Positions 37,887 through 51,222 of a stretch of DNA of 64,000 nt are shown here, in pieces. Position numbers and translations under genes: made by a program. This DNA is from Euhalothece natronophila Z-M001 (lineage in GTDB: Bacteria > Cyanobacteriota > Cyanobacteriia > Cyanobacteriales > Rubidibacteraceae), in NCBI RefSeq assembly GCF_007904085.1, contig NZ_CP042326.1, forward strand, positions 1,612,001 to 1,676,000, in the 5' to 3' direction. The notes below the pieces were generated by a model, which saw only the letters and a list, made by a program, of their open reading frames with translations, was not told the origin of the DNA and searched no databases. Within the stretch, counting starts at the first letter, position 1. Each line of letters starts with the position of its first letter.

Positions 37887-38051
37887 ACTGAGCTCAATCA
37901 TCAAGAGCAAAGATCAATGAAGTGAAAGTGAGGTTATTATTCTTCTTTTAAAGATAAACTAGTGGTAAAAGAAATATGAATACTTTCAACGATTAAAATT
38001 TCTTAATTTTAATAAAAAGATCACCAAACAGTGTTAACTTGAATTAGTCAA

Positions 38052-38849
38052 ATGAGAAAAGCCTCCCCGCTTTTAATTGCACAAATAACTGATACCCATC
38101 TTTTTGCCTCTTCTCAGGAAGAATTATTAGGGTTACAAACCGATTCATCCTTTAAGGCAGTGCTAAGGGAAATCCAAGCCTTAACTCCTCAACCACAAGG
38201 TTTATTATTAACTGGAGACTTATCTCAAGATGAAACTCTTGCCTCTTACCAAAACTTATACCAACAATTAGAACCTTTACAAATTCCTGCTTATTGGTTG
38301 CCAGGAAATCACGATCAACCTCAATTAATGCAAGAAGCATTAACCAAGCCTCCCACTTATGGAGATAAATCATTCCAATTGGGGAGTTGGCAATTTATTT
38401 TACTTAACTCCGCAGTGCCAGGACGAGTTTATGGTTATCTGAGCTCGGAAACCCTTGAGTGGTTAGATAAGCAACTATACAACAATAGCCATGCTCCCAC
38501 TCTAGTTGCCTTACATCACCCTCCGTTTTCAGTTAACTCCCACTGGATTGATACTAGCCGTTTAAAAAATCCTGAAGATTTATTTAGGGTTTTAGATTGT
38601 CATCCGCAAGTGAACCTTGTGGTATTTGGTCATATTCACCAAAATTTTCAGCGCGATCGCGCCGGTGTACGTTACCTAGCTTCTCCTTCCAGTTCTATTC
38701 AATTTAAGCCAGAATGCGATAGGTTTGCCCTTGATGAGCTTCAGCCAGGTTATAGGCTATTTTGGCTTTACGAAAATGGCGAGTTTGCGACTACCGTTAA
38801 AAGAGTGGAATTTAGCTACACTGTAGATTTAGCGGCTACAGGATATTAA
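38052..38849 (+). CDS. cpdA: CpdA-like metallophosphoesterase (3',5'-cyclic nucleotide phosphodiesterase family)
   Basis: The 265-residue protein has all five metallophosphoesterase motifs in order: ITDTHLF, LLTGDLSQD, LPGNHDQPQ, ALHHPP and VFGHIHQNF. The order and spacing fit the CpdA class III phosphodiesterases, which bind two metals and cleave cAMP. The substrate here is not shown. A perfect inverted repeat ATTAAAATT/AATTTTAAT (37992-38013) lies 40 bp upstream and could be an operator or RNA hairpin. Confidence 0.88.
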   Translation: MRKASPLLIAQITDTHLFASSQEELLGLQTDSSFKAVLREIQALTPQPQGLLLTGDLSQDETLASYQNLYQQLEPLQIPAYWLPGNHDQPQLMQEALTKPPTYGDKSFQLGSWQFILLNSAVPGRVYGYLSSETLEWLDKQLYNNSHAPTLVALHHPPFSVNSHWIDTSRLKNPEDLFRVLDCHPQVNLVVFGHIHQNFQRDRAGVRYLASPSSSIQFKPECDRFALDELQPGYRLFWLYENGEFATTVKRVEFSYTVDLAATGY

Positions 38850-39000
38850 CTGCATTTTTTCAAGTTATGCGACACTAGCCAGTTAATTAATCCTCAATTA
38901 ACAAATCAGTTAAAAAAACTGAACAAGCCTATTACTTAGAATATATCTCATCAAGAGCAATCTGTGAAGAAACCTAATTTTGGAGTGATTATAGGAAGGG

Positions 39001-39162
39001 TTATTTTCTAGAGATGACCCAAATTGCATGAACTAAGCCAGGGATATATCCTAATAGGGTAAGTACAATATTAACCCAAAAATCAATTCCAATTCCTACT
39101 TGTAAAAACACTCCTAAGGGTGGAATTAGTACCGATAAGAGTATTCTAATTAAATCAGCCAT
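39001..39162 (-). CDS. YqaE/Pmp3-family small membrane protein
   Basis: The 53-residue protein starts at ATG 39160-39162 after GGAGAT. Two membrane helices enclose the family signature: ILLSVLIPPLGVFLQVG in the first and WVNIVLTLLGYIPGLVHAIW in the second. Pmp3-type proteolipids modulate membrane potential and appear in salt and cold tolerance in yeast and plants. It fits a halotolerant cell, but that is inference. The ORF is below the size limit of many gene finders. Confidence 0.9.
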   Translation of the reverse strand: MADLIRILLSVLIPPLGVFLQVGIGIDFWVNIVLTLLGYIPGLVHAIWVISRK

Positions 39163-39227
39163 AATTAAACATCTCCAAGTATTATTTATTCTGTAATCAT
39201 AGCGTAGTGGCTGTTAAATATTTATGA

Positions 39228-39605
39228 CTATTGTTGAGATTGTCGTCCTAATTCATAAATACCAAAAGCCATACAAGCTAAAAGCCCCACACTGATTGCC
39301 CAGCTACGACCTAAACTGGCTTCAACCCCGTAATTACAGAAGATACCTATTATTAGAAAAGGGAAAATGCTAAAAATTGAAGCGTAAAACGCATTTTGAG
39401 ATTCTCGAGCTTCTCGGGTTCGTTCAAATTCCTCAGTTGAAAAATACAGCGATCGCTCCGCAAAGTTAAACCAACGCATTAGCTGAGTCATCAACCAATC
39501 ACGTAACGAAGATAAACTCAAATAAAGGGCAAATGCCCAAAGAGTAATCCCTGCTATAGTATTAGGCTCAATATTGATCTGGGGAAGCATTTCTAGCATA
39601 ATCAA
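39228..39605 (-). CDS. hypothetical membrane protein (about three TM)
   Basis: The 125-residue protein has hydrophobic segments at about 16-35, 76-93 and 100-118. A charged, helical middle, FNFAERSLYFSTEEFERTRE, lies between the first and second. It starts at ATG 39603-39605 with two further Met close by (residues 3 and 6). It precedes the Pmp3-like gene on the same strand with about 65 bp between. The family is unknown to me, and the pattern suggests a membrane-anchored cytosolic helix. Confidence 0.55.
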   Translation of the reverse strand: MIMLEMLPQINIEPNTIAGITLWAFALYLSLSSLRDWLMTQLMRWFNFAERSLYFSTEEFERTREARESQNAFYASIFSIFPFLIIGIFCNYGVEASLGRSWAISVGLLACMAFGIYELGRQSQQ

Positions 39606-39719
39606 GAAGGTCGTGTAGCAACATAATTTTGCATCGTTTTACGAATTTTAACAAATCCCCTGTTTTTTGTCTTACCATACTGAGAGAAGGACTCCGTACG
39701 ATCGGGCAGATCGGAACGG

Positions 39720-39900
39720 CCCCCTCTCTTTCTCTCCCAGTGGGGGAGATTTAAGAGGGGAAAACGCTTGGGGAGATGGAACCGCTACTGTTGTTGGAGA
39801 AGTCCAATCGCAGCAAGTTCCGTCGTCTTGTGAACCTAGTTCATAAGTTAGAACCAAGAATCCCCTCGCCTTTAGGCAGGGGAGTGTCAACTCCTTAGAC
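39720..39900 (+). pseudogene. probable IS200/IS605-family remnant (TnpB tail and right-end hairpin)
   Basis: The 340 bp between the 125-aa gene and ubiD hold no intact gene. A plus-strand frame at about 39757-39846 reads GENAWGDGTATVVGEVQSQQ and ends at TAA 39844-39846, which resembles the C-terminal tail of cyanobacterial TnpB proteins (from memory). Shortly after, CCCC-T-CGCC-TTTA-GGC-A-GGGG (39862-39882) and GGAG-TGTCAA-CTCC (39881-39894) form hairpins like those at the ends of IS200/IS605 elements. All other parts are missing. The minus-strand frame across it is a shadow. Confidence 0.45.
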
Positions 39901-39948
39901 AATCAATGTTCATCTGGAATCCTCACCCCTAGCTTTCTAAATAGCAAA

Positions 39949-41454
39949 TTAAAGATCATAACCAAATAGGTTAGCATTTACTTCTTCTAAATTAATGTCT
40001 CCCAAACCATACTCTTCCCAACGCTGATCGACAGTTTTTGCCATTTCTGGATCAGATTCCAAGGGTTTACCCCATTCATGTTCCGTTTCAGGGGGAATTT
40101 TAGTGGTTGCATCAATCCCCATTCTGCCTCCTAAACCAATTTTTTCACTAGCAAAATCTAAACTATCAAAAGGGGTTTCTGGGAGAATAAATACATCTCG
40201 GTTGGGATCAACCTTGGAAGAAATTGCCCAAACTACCTCCCGTGGATCACGGATATTAATCCCATCATCAACCACAATTACAAACTTAGTATAGGTAAAC
40301 TGAGGTAAAGCACTCCAGAAAGCAAGGGCTGCCCGTTTAGCATGTCCAGGATAGGCTTTTTTAATGGAGATAATAGCAGCTTTATAACTTAATGCCTCCA
40401 TGGGGAGGAAAAAGTCTGTAATCTCGGAAACCTGTTGCCGTAAAATCGGGGTATAGATGCGGTTTAAGGCAATGGCAATAATTGCTTCTTCTTTCGGGGG
40501 ACGACCGCTAAATGTAGTGAGATAGATGGGATTTTTGCGGTGGGTGACGCATTGAAAACGAATTACAGGAGAATCCTCCACGCCGCCATAATAGCCCATG
40601 TGGTCGCCAAAGGGGCCATCTGGTAATACTTCCCCAGGAGTAATGGTTCCTTCTAAGACAAATTCCGAGTCAGCAGGAACCTGCAAGTCAACAGTTTTAC
40701 AATTAGCTAATTTTACTCCAGAACCGCCATAGAGTCCAGCAAATAACCATTCTGAGAGATCCACTGGAATTGGGGTTGCCGCTGCCATAATAATGAGGGG
40801 ATCTACTCCAAGCGCGATCGCGATTTCTAATTTTTTCCCTTGTTCAGCTGCCTTACGTAAATGTCTCGCCCCACCACGCACCGACAACCAATGCACAGTC
40901 ATGGTATTTTTAGACTGAAGCTGTAAGCGATACACTCCCACATTGGGGGTTCCGGTTTCTACATCCTTGGTAATCACTAAGCCAAGGGTAATAATTTTTC
41001 CTCCATCATCTGGATAAGGGCGCAAAAGGGGTAAACGATTAAGATCAACTTCTTCTCCTTTTTCTACCACTTCCTGACAGGGTGGGAAAAAATCGCGCCC
41101 CGGTTTAGCTTTTGCCACATCAAAGAGTAATTTTCCAAACTCTACCGCTTGGGAAATTTTCTTCGGCGGTTTCGGCTGTTGAAGCATCCCCAATTTTTCT
41201 CCCAAGGTTTCTAACTCTTGGGGATCATCTCGGTTCATTGCCCAACAAACCCGTTCTAGCGTTCCCATGAGATTAATTGCCACAGGGTAGGATGCTCCTT
41301 TAACATTCTCAAATAGGAGTGCTGGCCCTCCAGCTTTTAACATCCTATTAGCAATCTCAGTAATCTCTAACTCTGGATCAACTGGGGCAGTAATTCGTCG
41401 CAGTTGCCCTTTTTCCTCAAGCTGTTTGATAAATTCTCGTAAATCTCGCGCCAT
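39949..41454 (-). CDS. ubiD: UbiD-family prenylated-FMN decarboxylase
   Basis: The 501-residue cytosolic enzyme begins MARDLREFIKQLEEKGQL. The active-site region reads GPFGDHMGYYGGVEDSPVIR near residue 275, and RVCWAMNRDDPQ and VYRLQLQSKNTMTVHW supply the prFMN contacts. In cyanobacteria the family is linked to plastoquinone biosynthesis (decarboxylation of 4-hydroxy-3-polyprenylbenzoate), and the cofactor requires UbiX, which is not in the window. It starts at ATG 41452-41454 and diverges from the NYN gene. Confidence 0.92.
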   Translation of the reverse strand: MARDLREFIKQLEEKGQLRRITAPVDPELEITEIANRMLKAGGPALLFENVKGASYPVAINLMGTLERVCWAMNRDDPQELETLGEKLGMLQQPKPPKKISQAVEFGKLLFDVAKAKPGRDFFPPCQEVVEKGEEVDLNRLPLLRPYPDDGGKIITLGLVITKDVETGTPNVGVYRLQLQSKNTMTVHWLSVRGGARHLRKAAEQGKKLEIAIALGVDPLIIMAAATPIPVDLSEWLFAGLYGGSGVKLANCKTVDLQVPADSEFVLEGTITPGEVLPDGPFGDHMGYYGGVEDSPVIRFQCVTHRKNPIYLTTFSGRPPKEEAIIAIALNRIYTPILRQQVSEITDFFLPMEALSYKAAIISIKKAYPGHAKRAALAFWSALPQFTYTKFVIVVDDGINIRDPREVVWAISSKVDPNRDVFILPETPFDSLDFASEKIGLGGRMGIDATTKIPPETEHEWGKPLESDPEMAKTVDQRWEEYGLGDINLEEVNANLFGYDL

Positions 41455-41557
41455 AATGACAAAATATTAAGCCTTTCCTTTTCTGATCATAGCTATCCTG
41501 AATGAGTTATATCTGAAGTTGGCAATTTTTTAAGTAATTGATTAAAATTTCAAGATA

Positions 41558-42883
41558 ATGCCAAAATGTCCACAATGTCACAGTCAAAGCTATCGCAAAA
41601 ATGGACGCGTGCGAGGAAAGCAACGTTATCGCTGTAAAGATTGTGGACGACAGTTTTTAGAAGAAGCTTTAACTGTGGAATCTCCCCCTGAAGCATCAAA
41701 CTCAGGTGTCAGTATTCTTCTACTAGATTTAGAAAATATCAGACTTGATCGCGGTGCTGAAAGTTACTTACAGGAATTAGCCTTTTATCCATTACAGATC
41801 AAACTGGCTTTTGCCAACTGGGGAGAACCTGCCGTTAGTAAGCAAGATATTGATCTCTACGAACGGGGATATTTTTTAGTTCATGTTCCAGGTGGTAAAA
41901 ATAGTGCTGATGCGCGGATGATGACCTTAGGATCATCAATTCGGCTTCATTATCAAAATGTTCAAGAAGTCTTTGTTTGTTCCTCGGATTGGTTACTGAC
42001 TAATTTATGTAATGAATTATTGAGTCAAAATCTACGGGTGTGGCGAGTGCGTCGTCAAGACAAAGTTTTAGAAATTGAAAATCGCATGACTGGAGATACC
42101 TATGCTTATTCTTTAGAATTAAATCAAGGAATTCCTGAGACAAAAGCATTAATGTTACAATTGGAAAATTTACTTGCAAAAGAAAAACAATCTATTAGTC
42201 ATAAAATTGATGAAATTGCTCATTTAGAGACATTATTACAAGCAAGAAAAAAAATCATTAAAGATAATAAATCAGTAGATACTCAAGCAACGATTGCATC
42301 TACCAATGAAAACCTAAATGGCAATTCTTCTTACACTTTTTTTGGGGCAAATGAGTTAGAGGAAGCAGTTATTAAAATTATTGAAGAAGTTGAACAAAAT
42401 TCTCCTCATAAAACAATTACCCCTTCTGTAATTTCAAATTGTTTTAAGTCTCGCTTTGGAATGACAGCCAATGAAGTTGTCAAAACTTTTAATTTAGAGG
42501 CTAATTTTACGAAGTTTATTGAAAAAAGCTCTCGTATCACCTTAAAAAAAGCTAATGGAAAGAAAAATAAGAAAGTTACTGCTAAGGTAGAAAAAATCAA
42601 TACTAATTCAGGTCAATCCATAAATAGTTCATTAGAGCTACGCCAAATTTTAATTAATATTGTTGAATCTTTTCTATTAGAGACAGGAGAATCTTCAATT
42701 TTGTTGACGAAACTTGGGGCAAAATTTAAGGAAGTATATGGAAAATCAGTTTCTACTGTAATTAAATCGTTACAACTAAAAGGAAAGTTTACTAATTTTT
42801 TAATGTCCTGTGAGGAATTTCATTTAGAAAAAGTTGGGACCGTCTATAAAGTTTCCATAAATAATAAGACTATCCAGAAATAA
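41558..42883 (+). CDS. zinc ribbon - NYN nuclease - double LOTUS (OST-HTH) protein
   Basis: The 441-residue protein has an unusual domain order. Residues 1-36 are a transposase-type zinc ribbon (IS1 InsA-like) with C4, C7, C26 and C29 (CPQCHSQSYRKNG, then RYRCKDCGRQF). Residues about 50-200 form a NYN/PIN-like nuclease with the acid residues D57 (LLLDLEN), D118 (GKNSAD) and D144 (CSSDW). Two LOTUS/OST-HTH domains follow, about residues 265-335 and 360-435. NYN domains cut RNA, and LOTUS domains bind RNA or G-rich structures. The combination suggests RNA or mobile-element surveillance; that is inference. It is flanked by ubiD and an SLH lipoprotein, with no transposase. Confidence 0.85.
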   Translation: MPKCPQCHSQSYRKNGRVRGKQRYRCKDCGRQFLEEALTVESPPEASNSGVSILLLDLENIRLDRGAESYLQELAFYPLQIKLAFANWGEPAVSKQDIDLYERGYFLVHVPGGKNSADARMMTLGSSIRLHYQNVQEVFVCSSDWLLTNLCNELLSQNLRVWRVRRQDKVLEIENRMTGDTYAYSLELNQGIPETKALMLQLENLLAKEKQSISHKIDEIAHLETLLQARKKIIKDNKSVDTQATIASTNENLNGNSSYTFFGANELEEAVIKIIEEVEQNSPHKTITPSVISNCFKSRFGMTANEVVKTFNLEANFTKFIEKSSRITLKKANGKKNKKVTAKVEKINTNSGQSINSSLELRQILINIVESFLLETGESSILLTKLGAKFKEVYGKSVSTVIKSLQLKGKFTNFLMSCEEFHLEKVGTVYKVSINNKTIQK

Positions 42884-42963
42884 TATGACAATGGATTAAT
42901 CTTTTCTACAGATTGGTAGGAAGAGTCTGTAGTGAACAAATGATTAATAACTAATGACTAATT

Positions 42964-44175
42964 TTAATTTTCTGCTAGTAACTCATTAGCAGAAATAATT
43001 TCTCCTTGGGTTCCAAATGACCAAAGAGCTGCTGCAGCTTCGGCACGAGTAACTTCCCTTTGTGGTTGCAACAACTGCGTATAACCATATACCCGACGCA
43101 GGTTAGAATCCTCTCCGTTACGATAATCAGCAGCAATTGCCCCTAATGCTTCCGAGTCAATAGCATTAGCATCACGAAAGCCCCATGTATCCTCGATGGT
43201 TTCTACATCTACGGAAGGGAGACTACGACGGATATCTAAGGGAACTTTCCACAATAAGAGAGTTTCTCGAGTCAGGGAACGATCAGGGCGAAAGCGGGTT
43301 ACATCATCATCACCTGTCAGTCGTGAGGGAATTAATCCTGTTTCCGCTAATCCTTGGATAATGGGAAAGTCAGGATCATTTTGAGAAATATCTTGAAAAG
43401 CACGGGTTTCGGCTTGATTTACAGGACGAATTTGTTGGCTAGAGCGATCGCTGTAAAATTCATTATTTGCTTGAAATAACCAACGGGCAAAAGTGCCACG
43501 AGTAATAGGCTCATTGGGAGCAAACTCTTCTTCCCCTTCTTCTAGAGGAGTTAAAATTCCTAGTTCTGCAAGATCTTCTACTTTTTCTTGTAACGCCTCA
43601 GGGGTTTCGTCTAAATCATTAAAATTCCCTGCAAACTCTCTAGTGGTGTCTTCTTCTACAACTTCTTCTTCGGTGGTATCTTCTGTTGTCTCTTCTTCAG
43701 GACTTCTGCGTTGATACTCAATTAAAATTGTATGACTAGGTTGTGGGGTTTGGGCATCTGCTACTAAAACACTCAGGTTCAAAGAGCGCGATCGCGCCTC
43801 CATAATTTCTTCCCCATCTTGCCCTTCTGTAAAGGGGGTTTCAACTTCCCAATTATCTTCCCCTAACTCCTGTTCATAGAAGGCAATAATTTCTTCCATG
43901 GAATCAGGTGATAACCATTGTAGTCTTCCAAAAGCCTCTTCCTCATCAATTTGTTCATCCACTAACTCAGCATTGGGATAAAGAGGAATCTCATCAGGAA
44001 CATCTTCTGTCGGTTCAGTTTGTGTTACTTCCTCTTCATTGTCAGGGGAGACATCTTCTTGTTCCTCTAATTCCGAATCGGCAGCGAGGCGTTGTTGTAA
44101 CCCTTCTCCACAGCCAGTGATTAGAGTAAAACTAATGAGTATGATAAGAGCAGATTTATAAGACAATGAAAACAT
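42964..44175 (-). CDS. S-layer homology (SLH) domain lipoprotein
   Basis: The protein has 403 residues from ATG 44173-44175; the open frame reaches to 44238, but this Met sits before the signal and behind an AAGGAT. The lipobox LITGC gives a lipidated Cys. An acidic E/D/P-rich stretch (about 20-70) leads to a small domain with LYPNAELVDEQIDEEEAFGR (about 55-150), then another acid-rich linker. SLH-type repeats fill about 200-400 (LAELGILTPLEEGEE, TRGTFARWLFQANNEFY, REVTRAEAAAALWSFG). SLH proteins in cyanobacteria bridge outer membrane and peptidoglycan. Its exact role is unknown. Confidence 0.85.
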   Translation of the reverse strand: MFSLSYKSALIILISFTLITGCGEGLQQRLAADSELEEQEDVSPDNEEEVTQTEPTEDVPDEIPLYPNAELVDEQIDEEEAFGRLQWLSPDSMEEIIAFYEQELGEDNWEVETPFTEGQDGEEIMEARSRSLNLSVLVADAQTPQPSHTILIEYQRRSPEEETTEDTTEEEVVEEDTTREFAGNFNDLDETPEALQEKVEDLAELGILTPLEEGEEEFAPNEPITRGTFARWLFQANNEFYSDRSSQQIRPVNQAETRAFQDISQNDPDFPIIQGLAETGLIPSRLTGDDDVTRFRPDRSLTRETLLLWKVPLDIRRSLPSVDVETIEDTWGFRDANAIDSEALGAIAADYRNGEDSNLRRVYGYTQLLQPQREVTRAEAAAALWSFGTQGEIISANELLAEN

Positions 44176-44358
44176 ATCCTTTTTTAATGTAATGGATATT
44201 CTTCTTTTAAGATAACGTATTGCTCTAAGTTCCACCAAATCATAGGCTGCTCACTGCAAACCTACTTATGGTACTCTGCCACGGAACTTGCAAGTAGATT
44301 AATCTCTCAGTGAAAAAAAGATAAAGTAAAGTATAAGTTTTGAGTATCAGCAAAAATT

Positions 44359-45696
44359 ATGAAACGTTTGTTAATGCACAACCCCATTGCTGTAGCCTTA
44401 TTATGGGTTACTGCTTACTTGCTAATTACCCTATTTCCTCTAGCAGTCGTATTATTATATCCTGCGCCAGAGAATCGCGAGTTTTGGGTTGACTTTTCTG
44501 TTGCCCTCGGGTTTATTGGCTTAGCGATGATGATTTTACAATTTGCTCTCACTGCTAGGGTTAATCGCATTGAGGCTTCCTACGGAATTGACATTTTACT
44601 CCAATTTCATCGCTACACTTCTTTAGCTGCTTTTGTCATGGTGGTGATCCACCCGATCATTTTATTTATCGTCCAGCCAGAAACTCTAGAATTACTAAAT
44701 ATCCTAGAAGCACCTTGGCGAGCAAGATTAGCCGTAATTGGTACTCTTGCGTTTTTCATAATGGTGGCGACCACAATTTGGCGTAAACCTTTGAAAATTC
44801 CTTATGAACCTTGGCGGGCTGCCCATAGCATTCTTGCGGTGATTGCTGTCGGGTTTGGTTTTGGACATACCTTAGGGGTTGCCAATTATCTCAGCTTCTT
44901 TTGGAAAGTTGTTCTTTGGTCAGCAATGATTTTAGTAGCCCTTTGGTTGATTACTTATGTCCGTTTAGTAAAACCTTGGCTATTAACCAAACGCCCGTAT
45001 TTAGTGGAGGAAGTTGTCCCTCTTAGAGGTGATGTTTGGAAATTAGCCTTAAGACCAAGTGGTCATGAAGGCTTTACCTTCCAACCTGGTCAGTTTGCTT
45101 GGATAACGTTAGGTATTCATCCTATTCGGATGCGGGAACATCCCTTTTCTATGTCTTCTAGTGGTGATCATCCTGAGCGTATTGAATTTGGAATTAAAGC
45201 TCTCGGAGACTTCACTCGGAGCATTAAAAATATTAAACCTGGAACAAAAGCTTATTTAGACGGTCCCTATGGAGTTTTTACAACTGAGCGTTATTGGGAT
45301 AGCGCTGGTTTTGTCCTGATTGCTGGCGGTGTTGGGATTACACCCATGTATAGTATGCTTGTCACAGCAGTAGAGCGTCAAGATGATCGTCCTTTTCTTT
45401 TGATTTATTCGGCTCGGAGTTGGGAAGATTTTACTTATCGAGAAGAATTAGAAGTCATCAAAACCAAATTAAACTTGCAAATTATTTATGTCCCTCGACA
45501 TGGTGATGAGAACTGGACAGGGGAAACTGGTTATGTAGATAAAGATCTTTTAGAACGTTATATTCCTATTCATCGAGGCAGTCGCCAGTATTTTATTTGT
45601 GCTGCCCCAGTGATGATGGATGCTGTAGAGGCAGGGTTATTGTCTTTAGATGTGCCAGTAACTAACATCCACATGGAACACTTTAACTTAGCTTAA
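44359..45696 (+). CDS. ferric reductase-like transmembrane flavoprotein oxidoreductase
   Basis: The 445-residue protein has about six N-terminal helices of the ferric-reductase domain with paired His (FHRYTSL, VIHPIILF, WRAAHSILA, GFGHTLG) for heme. A FAD domain follows (IRMREHPFSMSSS is the RxxxFS box near residue 262), then an NAD(P)H domain (IAGGVGITPMYSM, then YFICAAPVMMDAVEAGL). It would pass electrons from NAD(P)H across the membrane to Fe3+, quinone or O2. It is followed after 18 bp by a small membrane ORF that may be its partner. Confidence 0.88.
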   Translation: MKRLLMHNPIAVALLWVTAYLLITLFPLAVVLLYPAPENREFWVDFSVALGFIGLAMMILQFALTARVNRIEASYGIDILLQFHRYTSLAAFVMVVIHPIILFIVQPETLELLNILEAPWRARLAVIGTLAFFIMVATTIWRKPLKIPYEPWRAAHSILAVIAVGFGFGHTLGVANYLSFFWKVVLWSAMILVALWLITYVRLVKPWLLTKRPYLVEEVVPLRGDVWKLALRPSGHEGFTFQPGQFAWITLGIHPIRMREHPFSMSSSGDHPERIEFGIKALGDFTRSIKNIKPGTKAYLDGPYGVFTTERYWDSAGFVLIAGGVGITPMYSMLVTAVERQDDRPFLLIYSARSWEDFTYREELEVIKTKLNLQIIYVPRHGDENWTGETGYVDKDLLERYIPIHRGSRQYFICAAPVMMDAVEAGLLSLDVPVTNIHMEHFNLA

Positions 45697-45714
45697 AAAG
45701 AGAGGAAAATATAG

Positions 45715-45858
45715 ATGCGCTATAGTCTAATGTTACAACTCGTAGTTAGTACCAGTATCGTTTTAGTGGTAGTGGCTGCTTTTTTTGCTTGGTTGCAAAA
45801 CCGTCCACAAAGTTCCATCAATGAAGCAAGTAGCTCAGTTATCATCCGTTCTCAGTGA
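45715..45858 (+). CDS. small single-helix membrane protein next to the ferric reductase
   Basis: ATG 45715 to TGA 45856-45858 encodes 47 residues. A basic start (MRYSLMLQ) is followed by a 20-residue hydrophobic helix (STSIVLVVVAAFFAWL) and a polar C-terminal tail (NRPQSSINEASSSVIIRS). GAGAGGAAAA lies about 10 bp before the ATG, and the gap to the upstream stop is 18 bp, so it is likely co-transcribed. It may be a subunit or anchor of the oxidoreductase. It is too short for many gene finders. Confidence 0.6.
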   Translation: MRYSLMLQLVVSTSIVLVVVAAFFAWLQNRPQSSINEASSSVIIRSQ

Positions 45859-45927
45859 ACTATGCAACAGATCAGTAAAAATTAGGGGCTAGCGTAGCCT
45901 ATATTGTCGCTAGCGTTCATAAGTTAA

Positions 45928-46377
<450 letters not shown>

Positions 46378-46705: not shown

Positions 46706-47788
46706 ATGACAACCACCTTACAACAACAGCAAAGCCAAAACGTTTGGGAACGGTTTTGCCAGTGGGTGACCAGCACCAACAACCGCCTTTACATTGGTTG
46801 GTTCGGTGTCTTAATGATCCCCACCCTCTTAACCGCAACCACCTGCTTCATTATCGCCTTCATCGCAGCACCTCCTGTAGATATCGACGGCATTCGTGAA
46901 CCCGTAGCTGGTTCTCTCCTCTACGGAAACAACATCATCTCTGGAGCAGTAGTTCCCTCCTCCAACGCCATCGGACTGCACTTCTATCCCATCTGGGAAG
47001 CAGCTAGCCTTGACGAATGGCTCTACAACGGTGGCCCCTATCAGCTCATCGCCTTCCACTTCTTAATCGGAGTCTTCTGCTACCTCGGACGTGAGTGGGA
47101 ACTCTCCTATCGTTTAGGAATGCGCCCCTGGATTTGCGTAGCCTTCTCCGCACCAGTAGCAGCAGCCACCGCAGTCTTCTTAATCTATCCCATCGGACAA
47201 GGAAGCTTCTCCGACGGAATGCCCTTAGGAATCAGTGGAACCTTCAACTTCATGTTCGTGTTCCAAGCTGAGCACAACATCTTAATGCACCCCTTCCATA
47301 TGCTCGGTGTTGCCGGGGTATTCGGAGGCGCCTTATTCTCCGCCATGCACGGTTCTCTCGTTACCTCCAGCTTAGTACGTGAGACCACCGAAAACGAAAG
47401 CCAAAACAACGGCTACAAATTCGGACAAGAAGAAGAAACCTACAACATCGTTGCAGCACACGGTTACTTTGGTCGCTTAATCTTCCAATACGCCAGCTTC
47501 AACAACAGCCGTAGCCTCCACTTCTTCTTAGCAGCGTGGCCAGTAATCGGAATCTGGTTTACCGCGTTAGGTGTAAGCACCATGGCGTTTAACCTCAACG
47601 GATTCAACTTCAACCAGTCTGTAATTGACAGTCAAGGACGTGTCATCAACACTTGGGCAGACGTATTAAACCGTGCAAACCTCGGATTTGAGGTCATGCA
47701 CGAACGGAATGCTCATAACTTCCCCTTAGACTTAGCATCTGGTGAAGCAACTCCTGTTGCCATGCAAGCACCTGAAATCAACGGCTAA
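46706..47788 (+). CDS. psbA: photosystem II reaction centre protein D1
   Basis: The 360-residue D1 protein of the thylakoid PSII core is complete. It has Tyr-Z (Y161), Mn-cluster ligands D170 and E189, H190, H198, and the C-terminal cleavage after A344 with a 16-residue extension ([16 protein letters not shown]). Residue 130 is Glu (the high-light D1:2-type state). F147 replaces the common Tyr and F184 replaces the common Ile; F147 also occurs in Thermosynechococcus PsbA2. The codon use is strongly biased to C-ending codons, a sign of high expression. It has its own promoter and terminator. Confidence 0.98.
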
Positions 47789-49216: not shown

Positions 49217-50710
49217 TTACAGACTAAGGGCATTATCACGGGAGGCTTTACGAGCTTTGCCAGCACTGACCCATTCTTTTAAGAATTGTATTTCTTCTTG
49301 AGCAGTACGAGCAAGAGGAACAATTTGACTGGCGGCTTGTAAGATGTCTTCTGTGGTAAAGTCACGATTTTCACTAAACCCAAGGTGCATGGCTTCAATA
49401 ATCGTTTGTTCGATTTCTGCCCCAGAAAAATCAGGAGTTTCGTAGGCAAGTCGTTCTAAATCATAGTCTTTAACATTATAGGGGCGGAGGTGGGAAAGGT
49501 GAACTGAGAAAATCTCTTTTCGCTCTTTTTGGGTGGGTAAATCCACAAAGAAAATCTCGTCAAATCGTCCTTTCCGTAACATTTCTGGGGGAAGAGCGCG
49601 GACATTATTAGCTGTAGCCACCACAAACACAGAAGAGGTTTTTTCTGCGAGCCAAGTAATAAATGTTCCGAAAACACGACTGCTTGTTCCTGAGTCTCCC
49701 TGTCCCGTTAACCCAGAAAAGGCTTTGTCAATTTCATCAATCCAAAGAACACAAGGGGCTAGGGCTTCTGCGAGGGTGATCATTTGACGGGTACGAGATT
49801 CTGATTCCCCGACTAAGCCCCCAAATAATCGTCCCACATCAAGGCGTAATAGGGGCAGATGCCAATGGTGGGCAATGGCTTTAGCGGTAAGTGATTTTCC
49901 TGTGCCTTGAATCCCCACTAAAAGCAGTCCTCGGGGGTGAGGTAAACCGTAGGTACGAGCGCGATCGCTGAAAGCTCCACCTCGACGCAAGAGCCAATTT
50001 TTAAGGTTATCGAGTCCCCCAATATCAGAAATTTCTTCACTAGCAGGATAGAAATCCAGAATTTGCGTTTGACGAATGGATTGCCGTTTTTCTTCAACGA
50101 CTAAGTCCACATCTTCGGGTTGTAATGCCCCATGAGCAGCGATCGCGCGGGTTAAAACTCGCCGAATCCGTTCTAAAGATAGCCCTCGTGCAGAACGGAC
50201 AAAGGCATCAATTTGTTTTTCGGGTAAGGTTTGGGGAATGCTACTAATTAGCTGTTCAATTTCGGTTTTAATTTCCTCGTTATTAGGAAGGGGAAACTCG
50301 ACAACCGTTAGCACTTCTGTTAAGTCAGAGGGAATAGACACCTCAGGAGAGACTAAAACAACGTTAATGGGGAGAGATTTTAGCTTCCGCGAAAGATTCC
50401 GCAATTTCCGAGCCACAGAAATGTCTTCTAAAAAGCGGTGAAAATCCCTTAAGATGATAATTGCCCCATTGCCAGTAGGAAGTTTTTCCACATATTCCAG
50501 AGCTTGTAGGGGGTTACGCTGAGCAACGCCTGCATTATTAGGATTATCTTGATAACCATCCACAAAATCCCAAATATAGAGAGCGCGGTTGCCGACATTT
50601 TTGGCAGAAGTCGCGATCGCGCTTTCCACCCGTTCCTCTTCAAAAGTGGGAATATAAATTATGGGATAACAAGCTCGCAATAGTAGCTCAAACTCTTCAG
50701 CGAAACTCAT
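49217..50710 (-). CDS. AAA ATPase, Ycf46-like
   Basis: The 497-residue protein starts at ATG 50708-50710, preceded by GAGGAATAAAG, right after the stop of the DUF177 gene. An upstream Met at 50764 would overlap that gene. The N-terminal third (SFAEEFELLLRACYPIIYIP) is the Ycf46-specific domain. The AAA core has Walker A GIQGTGKS and Walker B CVLWIDEIDKAF. The end (ARTAQEEIQFLKEWVSAGKA) is also family-typical. Ycf46 is conserved in cyanobacteria and some algal plastids, and is implicated in CO2-dependent growth; its molecular role is unclear. Confidence 0.9.
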   Translation of the reverse strand: MSFAEEFELLLRACYPIIYIPTFEEERVESAIATSAKNVGNRALYIWDFVDGYQDNPNNAGVAQRNPLQALEYVEKLPTGNGAIIILRDFHRFLEDISVARKLRNLSRKLKSLPINVVLVSPEVSIPSDLTEVLTVVEFPLPNNEEIKTEIEQLISSIPQTLPEKQIDAFVRSARGLSLERIRRVLTRAIAAHGALQPEDVDLVVEEKRQSIRQTQILDFYPASEEISDIGGLDNLKNWLLRRGGAFSDRARTYGLPHPRGLLLVGIQGTGKSLTAKAIAHHWHLPLLRLDVGRLFGGLVGESESRTRQMITLAEALAPCVLWIDEIDKAFSGLTGQGDSGTSSRVFGTFITWLAEKTSSVFVVATANNVRALPPEMLRKGRFDEIFFVDLPTQKERKEIFSVHLSHLRPYNVKDYDLERLAYETPDFSGAEIEQTIIEAMHLGFSENRDFTTEDILQAASQIVPLARTAQEEIQFLKEWVSAGKARKASRDNALSL

Positions 50711-50712
50711 CT

Positions 50713-51222
50713 TTATTCCTCCCCATCTGACAATTGTTCTTTTAACGCTGCCAAACCTGCCCAACGTTGATCCACAGGGGGCGGTTCGACATAATCATAG
50801 TCCCCAGGGGAAGACTCTTCACTTAAACTGCGAATGGGAATTTGCAAACAGAACTGTTCATAGAGCCAACTTTCGGGATCAAAATAGCCCTGTGCTGGCA
50901 AACTTTCTGTTAACTCTTCCAAGGGAACTTCTACCTCTTTATTCGCCCCCAAATCTTCATCGGGGTGATCCTTGAGCCAAATTAGCTCACTGGTATCTAC
51001 TACTAGGCGTTGATTGTATTGTTGTAAACTGCGATCGCAGATTAAGGTTTTAATCGTTTCCGCGATCGCTGATACCTCTAAATACGTCCCATAATGAGTA
51101 ATCACCACAGTTCCGCGAATGGGAGTTAGGGTGTCTAAGCCCGGGAGAAAGTCTTTAATTTCAACTTGTTCACTTTTCCCGGGGGCTTTAAGCAGTCGTG
51201 GGATATAAATTGGTTCAATCAT
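50713..51222 (-). CDS. YceD/DUF177-family protein
   Basis: The protein has 169 residues from ATG 51220-51222; another in-frame ATG at 51246 overlaps the previous stop as TGATG and would add eight residues. The start MIEPIYIPRLLKAPGKSEQV and LEVSAIAETIKTLICDRSLQQYN are typical of DUF177 (YceD), which acts in 23S rRNA metabolism and is linked with rpmF in other bacteria. ELPAQGYFDPESWLYEQFCLQ-like sequence and a PPVDQRWAGLAAL end complete the family. It sits between jag and ycf46. Confidence 0.85.
   Translation of the reverse strand: MIEPIYIPRLLKAPGKSEQVEIKDFLPGLDTLTPIRGTVVITHYGTYLEVSAIAETIKTLICDRSLQQYNQRLVVDTSELIWLKDHPDEDLGANKEVEVPLEELTESLPAQGYFDPESWLYEQFCLQIPIRSLSEESSPGDYDYVEPPPVDQRWAGLAALKEQLSDGEE

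Follow-up and report, generated by a model that had tools for sequence, protein, structure and literature searches.

In bacteria, an NYN-type nuclease (DUF88/LK-nuclease) joined to one or two OST-HTH/LOTUS domains was described in 2010 as a stereotyped architecture, and in the available part of that account (PMC2848206) such proteins are not linked in a conserved way to any known RNA-processing system, Zn-knuckles beside the nuclease are mentioned, and the MARF1-type RNases of eukaryotes are considered to derive from the bacterial proteins. MARF1 (Limkain b1), composed of NYN, RRM and several LOTUS domains, is a demonstrated endoribonuclease that requires its NYN Asp cluster for cleavage, according to the available text of PMC6294520, and the same applies to a CRISPR-associated NYN protein, according to that of PMC11346440. 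The window analysed here, i.e., the whole stretch of 64,000 nucleotides from Euhalothece natronophila Z-M001, contains a gene whose product is related to these proteins, and which starts with a zinc ribbon of transposase type (Table 1). As for the bacterial proteins of PMC2848206, the window protein has an NYN/LK-nuclease domain with conserved Asp residues and C-terminal OST-HTH domains, the latter recognized from PF12872 matches in relatives, fold and profile, and it likewise lacks a conserved link to known RNA-processing systems; unlike in the parts of that account available, where Zn-knuckles accompany the nuclease, a transposase-type ribbon comes first. Among solved structures, MARF1 has the NYN fold most similar to that of the window protein, and its LOTUS domain also ranks among the nearest, but the window protein has no RRM (none among the 13 Pfam families matched up to E 1), two LOTUS domains instead of eight, and a zinc ribbon in front. 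With the N-terminus of IS1 InsA and IS1595 transposases it shares the ribbon sequence (NF050000), but there is no InsA HTH or transposase, and the ribbon is fused to a nuclease. The LabA-type NYN proteins of cyanobacteria are presumably relatives as well. Rae1/YacP and the CRISPR-associated ribonuclease have the NYN endoribonuclease domain in common with the window protein, the latter also the Asp cluster, but the words LOTUS and zinc do not occur in the available text of PMC11346440. NYN-LOTUS proteins are already known in bacteria; the ribbon-bearing branch, in which zinc ribbon, NYN and LOTUS are combined, was not found in the open-licence literature searched, where three papers, PMC3710099 among them, contain NYN, zinc ribbon and RNase. 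Nor was a tested function for bacterial NYN-LOTUS proteins found in the available text of that literature.

Table 1. Positions in the window of the ribbon-bearing gene, its parts and its divergent neighbour.
Feature	Position	Strand	Basis or remark
Zinc ribbon-NYN-LOTUS-LOTUS gene	41558..42883	+	ORF, ATG start, 441 aa
IS1/IS1595-type zinc ribbon, residues 1-36, Cys 4, 7, 26, 29	41558..41665	+	NF050000 E 1.5e-13; predicted strands E12-18, E21-26, E32-34
Linker, residues 37-49, short, poorly conserved, without InsA HTH	41666..41704	+	pN/pS 0.63 in Nostocales
NYN (PIN-like) nuclease domain, residues 50-192, D57, D118, D144	41705..42133	+	Pfam, invariant Asp; fold: MARF1 NYN Z 13.7, VPA0982 Z 11.7
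Long helix, residues 193-239	42134..42274	+	AlphaFold2 helix H195-239
First LOTUS-like winged helix, residues 262-346	42341..42595	+	AlphaFold2 models; profile match with second domain
Second LOTUS domain, residues 354-437	42617..42868	+	Tejas 10.3, TDRD7 9.9, TDRD5 9.7, MARF1 LOTUS 8.5
ubiD, divergent neighbour	39949..41454	-	UbiD Pfam E 1.1e-77; same in 28/60 loci

The domain order and residue numbers given in a preliminary description of the locus are borne out by the NF050000 match, the invariant Cys and Asp residues, the AlphaFold2 model, and profile and fold comparison. The whole-protein model, based on an alignment of 31 sequences, has a mean pLDDT of 83.5, with values of about 83–88 for the ribbon strands and mostly about 90 or above for the NYN fold, followed by two winged helices. 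Structure prediction places ribbon strands in the first 36 residues, as the same description requires.

In the nuclease part, PF01936 NYN matches the window protein with E 5.6e-4, under the gathering threshold of Pfam, and an NYN match at E ≤0.1 is obtained for 27 of the 30 aligned proteins. The NYN sequence profile gave no significant match in the PDB. Asp57, Asp118 and Asp144 are invariant in two alignments (30/30 and 31/31 proteins) and follow the same order as MARF1 Asp358, Asp426 and Asp452, the last two being separated by 26 residues in both. According to VIA-align, the NYN model is closest to MARF1 NYN (PDB code 5yaa, Z 13.7, 3.0 Å, 133 residues; 6fdl, Z 13.1), and VPA0982 (2qip) has a Z of 11.7.

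The preliminary description had also assigned two OST-HTH domains, which agrees with the winged-helix models, the fold ranks, hhalign and the PF12872 matches of relatives. There is no Pfam match for LOTUS in the window protein itself; PF12872 OST-HTH matches 13 of the 30 aligned proteins (best 1.5e-4). When the region of the two winged helices was folded separately (mean pLDDT 79.5), the second domain was found nearest to the LOTUS domains of Tejas (Z 10.3, 2.1 Å, 72 residues), TDRD7 (9.9), TDRD5 (9.7), Oskar (8.8) and MARF1 (8.5), with generic winged helices ranking after these at Z of about 7 to 8. For the first domain alone, generic winged helices come on top (Z 8.1), and it is called LOTUS-like because profile comparison ties it to the second domain (hhalign 99.4%, E 7.5e-22). 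The LOTUS assignment as such relies on the fold Z-scores and on the Pfam matches of relatives, since Foldseek E-values are weak for both models (best 1.4e-3 and 1.2e-3, the latter to a non-LOTUS chain). Comparison of the second-LOTUS sequence profile with the PDB retrieved no LOTUS chain, the best match being annexin at E 0.036.

Because MARF1 and the CRISPR-associated NYN protein cut RNA in an Asp-dependent manner, an RNA endonuclease is proposed. By analogy, we consider it probable that the gene, vertically inherited and chromosomal, encodes an endonuclease that acts on RNA on its own and belongs with the NYN-LOTUS proteins of bacteria, with the LOTUS domains and the ribbon as recruiting modules. 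Judging from family and fold, the NYN domain would cut RNA with the aid of a metal held by Asp57, Asp118 and Asp144; the two LOTUS domains may bind RNA and deliver it to the nuclease; and the zinc ribbon may be a further module of this sort that most probably recruits nucleic acid, considering that related ribbons occur in transposases and that basic and polar residues are conserved in it.

The ribbon (residues 4–35) scores 51.1 bits with NCBIfam model NF050000 IS1_IS1595_Zn, against a curated cut-off of 28 (E 1.5e-13), and the earlier assignment to the IS1 type was thus right. PF03811, the InsA ribbon model of Pfam, gives a weak match to the window protein (E 0.012, under the gathering threshold) and matches 7 of the 30 aligned proteins (best E 8.3e-9). 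Cys4, Cys7, Cys26 and Cys29 are present in all ten ribbon-type proteins of the alignment, and each of the non-Cys positions Lys14, Asn15, Gly16, Gln22, Tyr24, Lys27 and Phe33 is kept in 54 or more of the 56 distinct ribbons compared. The IS1 transposase model NF033558 reaches 42 bits (cut-off 100), matching in the ribbon part alone, and no InsA HTH follows the ribbon among the Pfam families up to E 1 in the window protein, where the stretch between ribbon and NYN is poorly conserved and about 13 residues long according to the alignment and AlphaFold2. A protein from Hormoscilla sp. GUM202 (L046, 5488–7158) has two tandem zinc ribbons before NYN.

As judged by codon comparison, the ribbon is constrained about as strongly as the NYN domain, the Cys-less group excepted. 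The pN/pS values, which are pairwise and hence non-independent, are 0.19 for the ribbon, 0.22 for NYN, 0.63 for the linker and 0.39 for LOTUS in 30 Nostocales genes, 0.31 (ribbon) and 0.20 (NYN) in ten Microcoleus genes, and 0.25 and 0.18 in six genes from Trichodesmium/Okeania and kin; six Cys-less genes give 0.73 and 0.22. The LOTUS part is under weaker constraint (0.39 to 0.63). In some Microcoleus/Tychonema relatives the zinc ligands are lost, and the ribbon is therefore taken to be dispensable in these. Seven loci (L041, L059, L073, L078, L084, L087 and L098) have a near-identical, CGATCG-rich stretch (MKNPRRSPDRFR) in place of the first ribbon codons, which we take to resemble the HIP1-type cyanobacterial repeat. 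The Cys-less genes interleave with intact ribbon genes on both trees described below, which suggests recombination. In three other loci (L010, L093 and L094), a frame change or broken frame parts the ribbon from NYN; pseudogenes, sequencing errors or a programmed frameshift are possible explanations.

The preliminary description had called for a search for the same architecture across cyanobacteria. A scan with the single protein gave no genome match, and a scan with the alignment gave 80 loci in named cyanobacterial records: 59 with the ribbon in frame, 7 with a Cys-less remnant, 1 (L094) with the ribbon in another frame and 13 with neither ribbon nor remnant, which group with the helical type described below where placed on trees. 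An assembly artefact, also raised in that description, is ruled out by the in-frame ribbons of these 59 loci, complete chromosomes included. Among 60 relative genomes, 11 are of the ribbon type (one, G039, with the ribbon in a different frame) and 24 have an NYN match only, without ribbon. Of 386 genomes, at least 59 have a match to the NYN region of at least 130 bits, 58 of them from the order to which the window belongs, and at least 18 have the ribbon, every one from that order. Of the five plasmid records that match, four do so in the ribbon only, and the fifth, from Brasilonema, in the NYN part (41%); viral contigs and phage records yielded no relative.

Unrooted trees were built from the NYN columns alone. 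In a quick tree of 114 rows, one branch with SH-aLRT 100 parts the ribbon type, including Cys-less genes, from the others. Twelve rows labelled "other" in that tree comprise helical-type, Cys-less and frame-broken genes, and were regrouped by eye for a careful tree of 56 chosen rows, which leaves out two long-branch rows (L031 and the helical L038) and has a single change between ribbon and no ribbon (100/100), recovered as one change in 200 of 200 bootstrap trees. The ribbon is 78–84% identical to orthologues of the same genus, and 58 and 53% identical to two IS1-like ribbons in the same genome; with the single change on the tree, this rules out copying from a local IS1. On the sequence evidence, the ribbon is inherited along with the gene, and not copied from resident elements.

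In the paralogues (L099–L112 and tandem partners), a helical N-terminal domain of about 100 residues replaces the ribbon. One of these, L103, was scanned alone, and NYN was its sole Pfam match; no NCBIfam model matched. Ribbon and helical types occur together in 12 loci (two of which, L012 and L038, seem to be the same contig), and tandem duplication with an exchanged N-terminus is therefore the simplest reading of how the two types arose. Since the closest paralogue has a helical domain and not a ribbon, it is probably through the N-terminus that substrate or partner is chosen.

The preliminary description had suggested a surveillance nuclease for mobile-element ends or their RNAs, which would recognize IS ends or IS transcripts through the ribbon. 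The IS1/IS1595 type of the ribbon agrees with such a role, as does the accumulation of retrotransposon RNA in MARF1-null oocytes reported in the available text of PMC6294520. However, end-specific DNA binding by InsA requires both zinc finger and HTH (available part of PMC12428005), and the HTH is absent after the ribbon. The median number of IS1 matches is 2 in the 11 ribbon genomes, after subtraction of one self-match each, against 5 in 49 others, but the difference is non-significant (p 0.33, with no kinship correction), and one ribbon genome has 26. The window's genome, in which IS1-like fragments are present (L002 and L003), has no IS1 match over the cut-off, so that the gene is retained where IS1 is scarce, the ribbon/no-ribbon split occurs once on the tree, and no PADLOC defence model matches the protein. 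Because the InsA HTH is missing, a dependence on IS1 is not visible and the housekeeping neighbours offer no defence context, the surveillance role is unsupported and we regard it as highly improbable; the protein may still act on transposon RNA through LOTUS or ribbon.

Genomic neighbours, which the preliminary description had suggested inspecting, are housekeeping genes with no defence or mobile context. The conserved block contains a divergent ubiD, one or more NYN genes, pst, SDR or glyoxalase, HAD hydrolase, CPP1-like and response regulator genes, with varying completeness. Counts were made over 60 loci (the 59 ribbon loci and L041, the six other Cys-less loci being left out), which are mostly Nostoc and Microcoleus kin and hence non-independent. 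In 28 of these, the closest upstream gene is a divergent ubiD. A pst gene takes the closest upstream position in 24 and the closest downstream position in 12, always on the strand of the gene, and the flank examined contains some pst gene in 41. Where 3.5 kb could be examined on both sides (47 loci), pst is present in 38, and ubiD or pst in 45. From gene content and order, the gene is placed in an old chromosomal housekeeping block, in neither a defence nor a mobile region. In the window, only ubiD of this block still adjoins the gene, and there is no pst beside it. No Rfam match was found in window positions 38000–46000. A photosynthetic reaction-centre protein (psbA-like) is encoded near the locus at 46706–47785.

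The Pst association could point to a phosphate-starvation RNase that recycles RNA or controls pst transcripts. The pst genes in the flanks of 41 loci, those closest to the gene being on its strand, and the PstB, PstC and PstS models that match representatives, speak for this, but the block order varies, the window gene has no adjoining pst, and the 60 loci are mostly Nostoc and Microcoleus kin. Moreover, with the consensus used and a score of 22, a Pho box was found in none of the 60 regions upstream of the ribbon gene (mean z 1.4), against 2 of 23 regions upstream of pstS (mean z 3.9). A phosphate-related role is consequently quite unlikely. An anti-phage effector, suggested by the NYN nuclease that accompanies type III CRISPR (available part of PMC11346440), is extremely improbable considering the conserved housekeeping synteny and the lack of relatives in viral contigs and phages. 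In addition, PADLOC gave no family up to E 1 for the window protein and no match for nine of ten neighbours, the tenth being IetA-like (49220–50764, E 1.6e-26).

In another reading, the ribbon would bind DNA without end specificity, and the RNase would be tethered to the nucleoid and cut nascent RNA or R-loops. Related ribbons occur in DNA-binding transposases (NF050000; PMC12428005, in its available part), and Lys14, Asn15, Gly16, Arg17 and Lys27 are conserved. However, RNA or proteins can equally be ligands of zinc ribbons, and we consider DNA tethering unlikely. In a fuller version, to which we assign a slightly better but still small chance, a captured transposase ribbon would have made an ancient MARF1-like RNase DNA-tethered, acting on nascent RNA or R-loops, with the helical paralogue serving another substrate. 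If so, the two types would represent a modular pair in which a swap of the N-terminal domain retargets the nuclease. The conserved paralogue pair with differing N-terminal modules, together with the natural series of intact, duplicated and Cys-less ribbons, makes substrate choice by these RNases testable, and the ribbon-bearing branch is a case in which selection has retained a transposase-type ribbon in what is predicted to be an RNase of the host.
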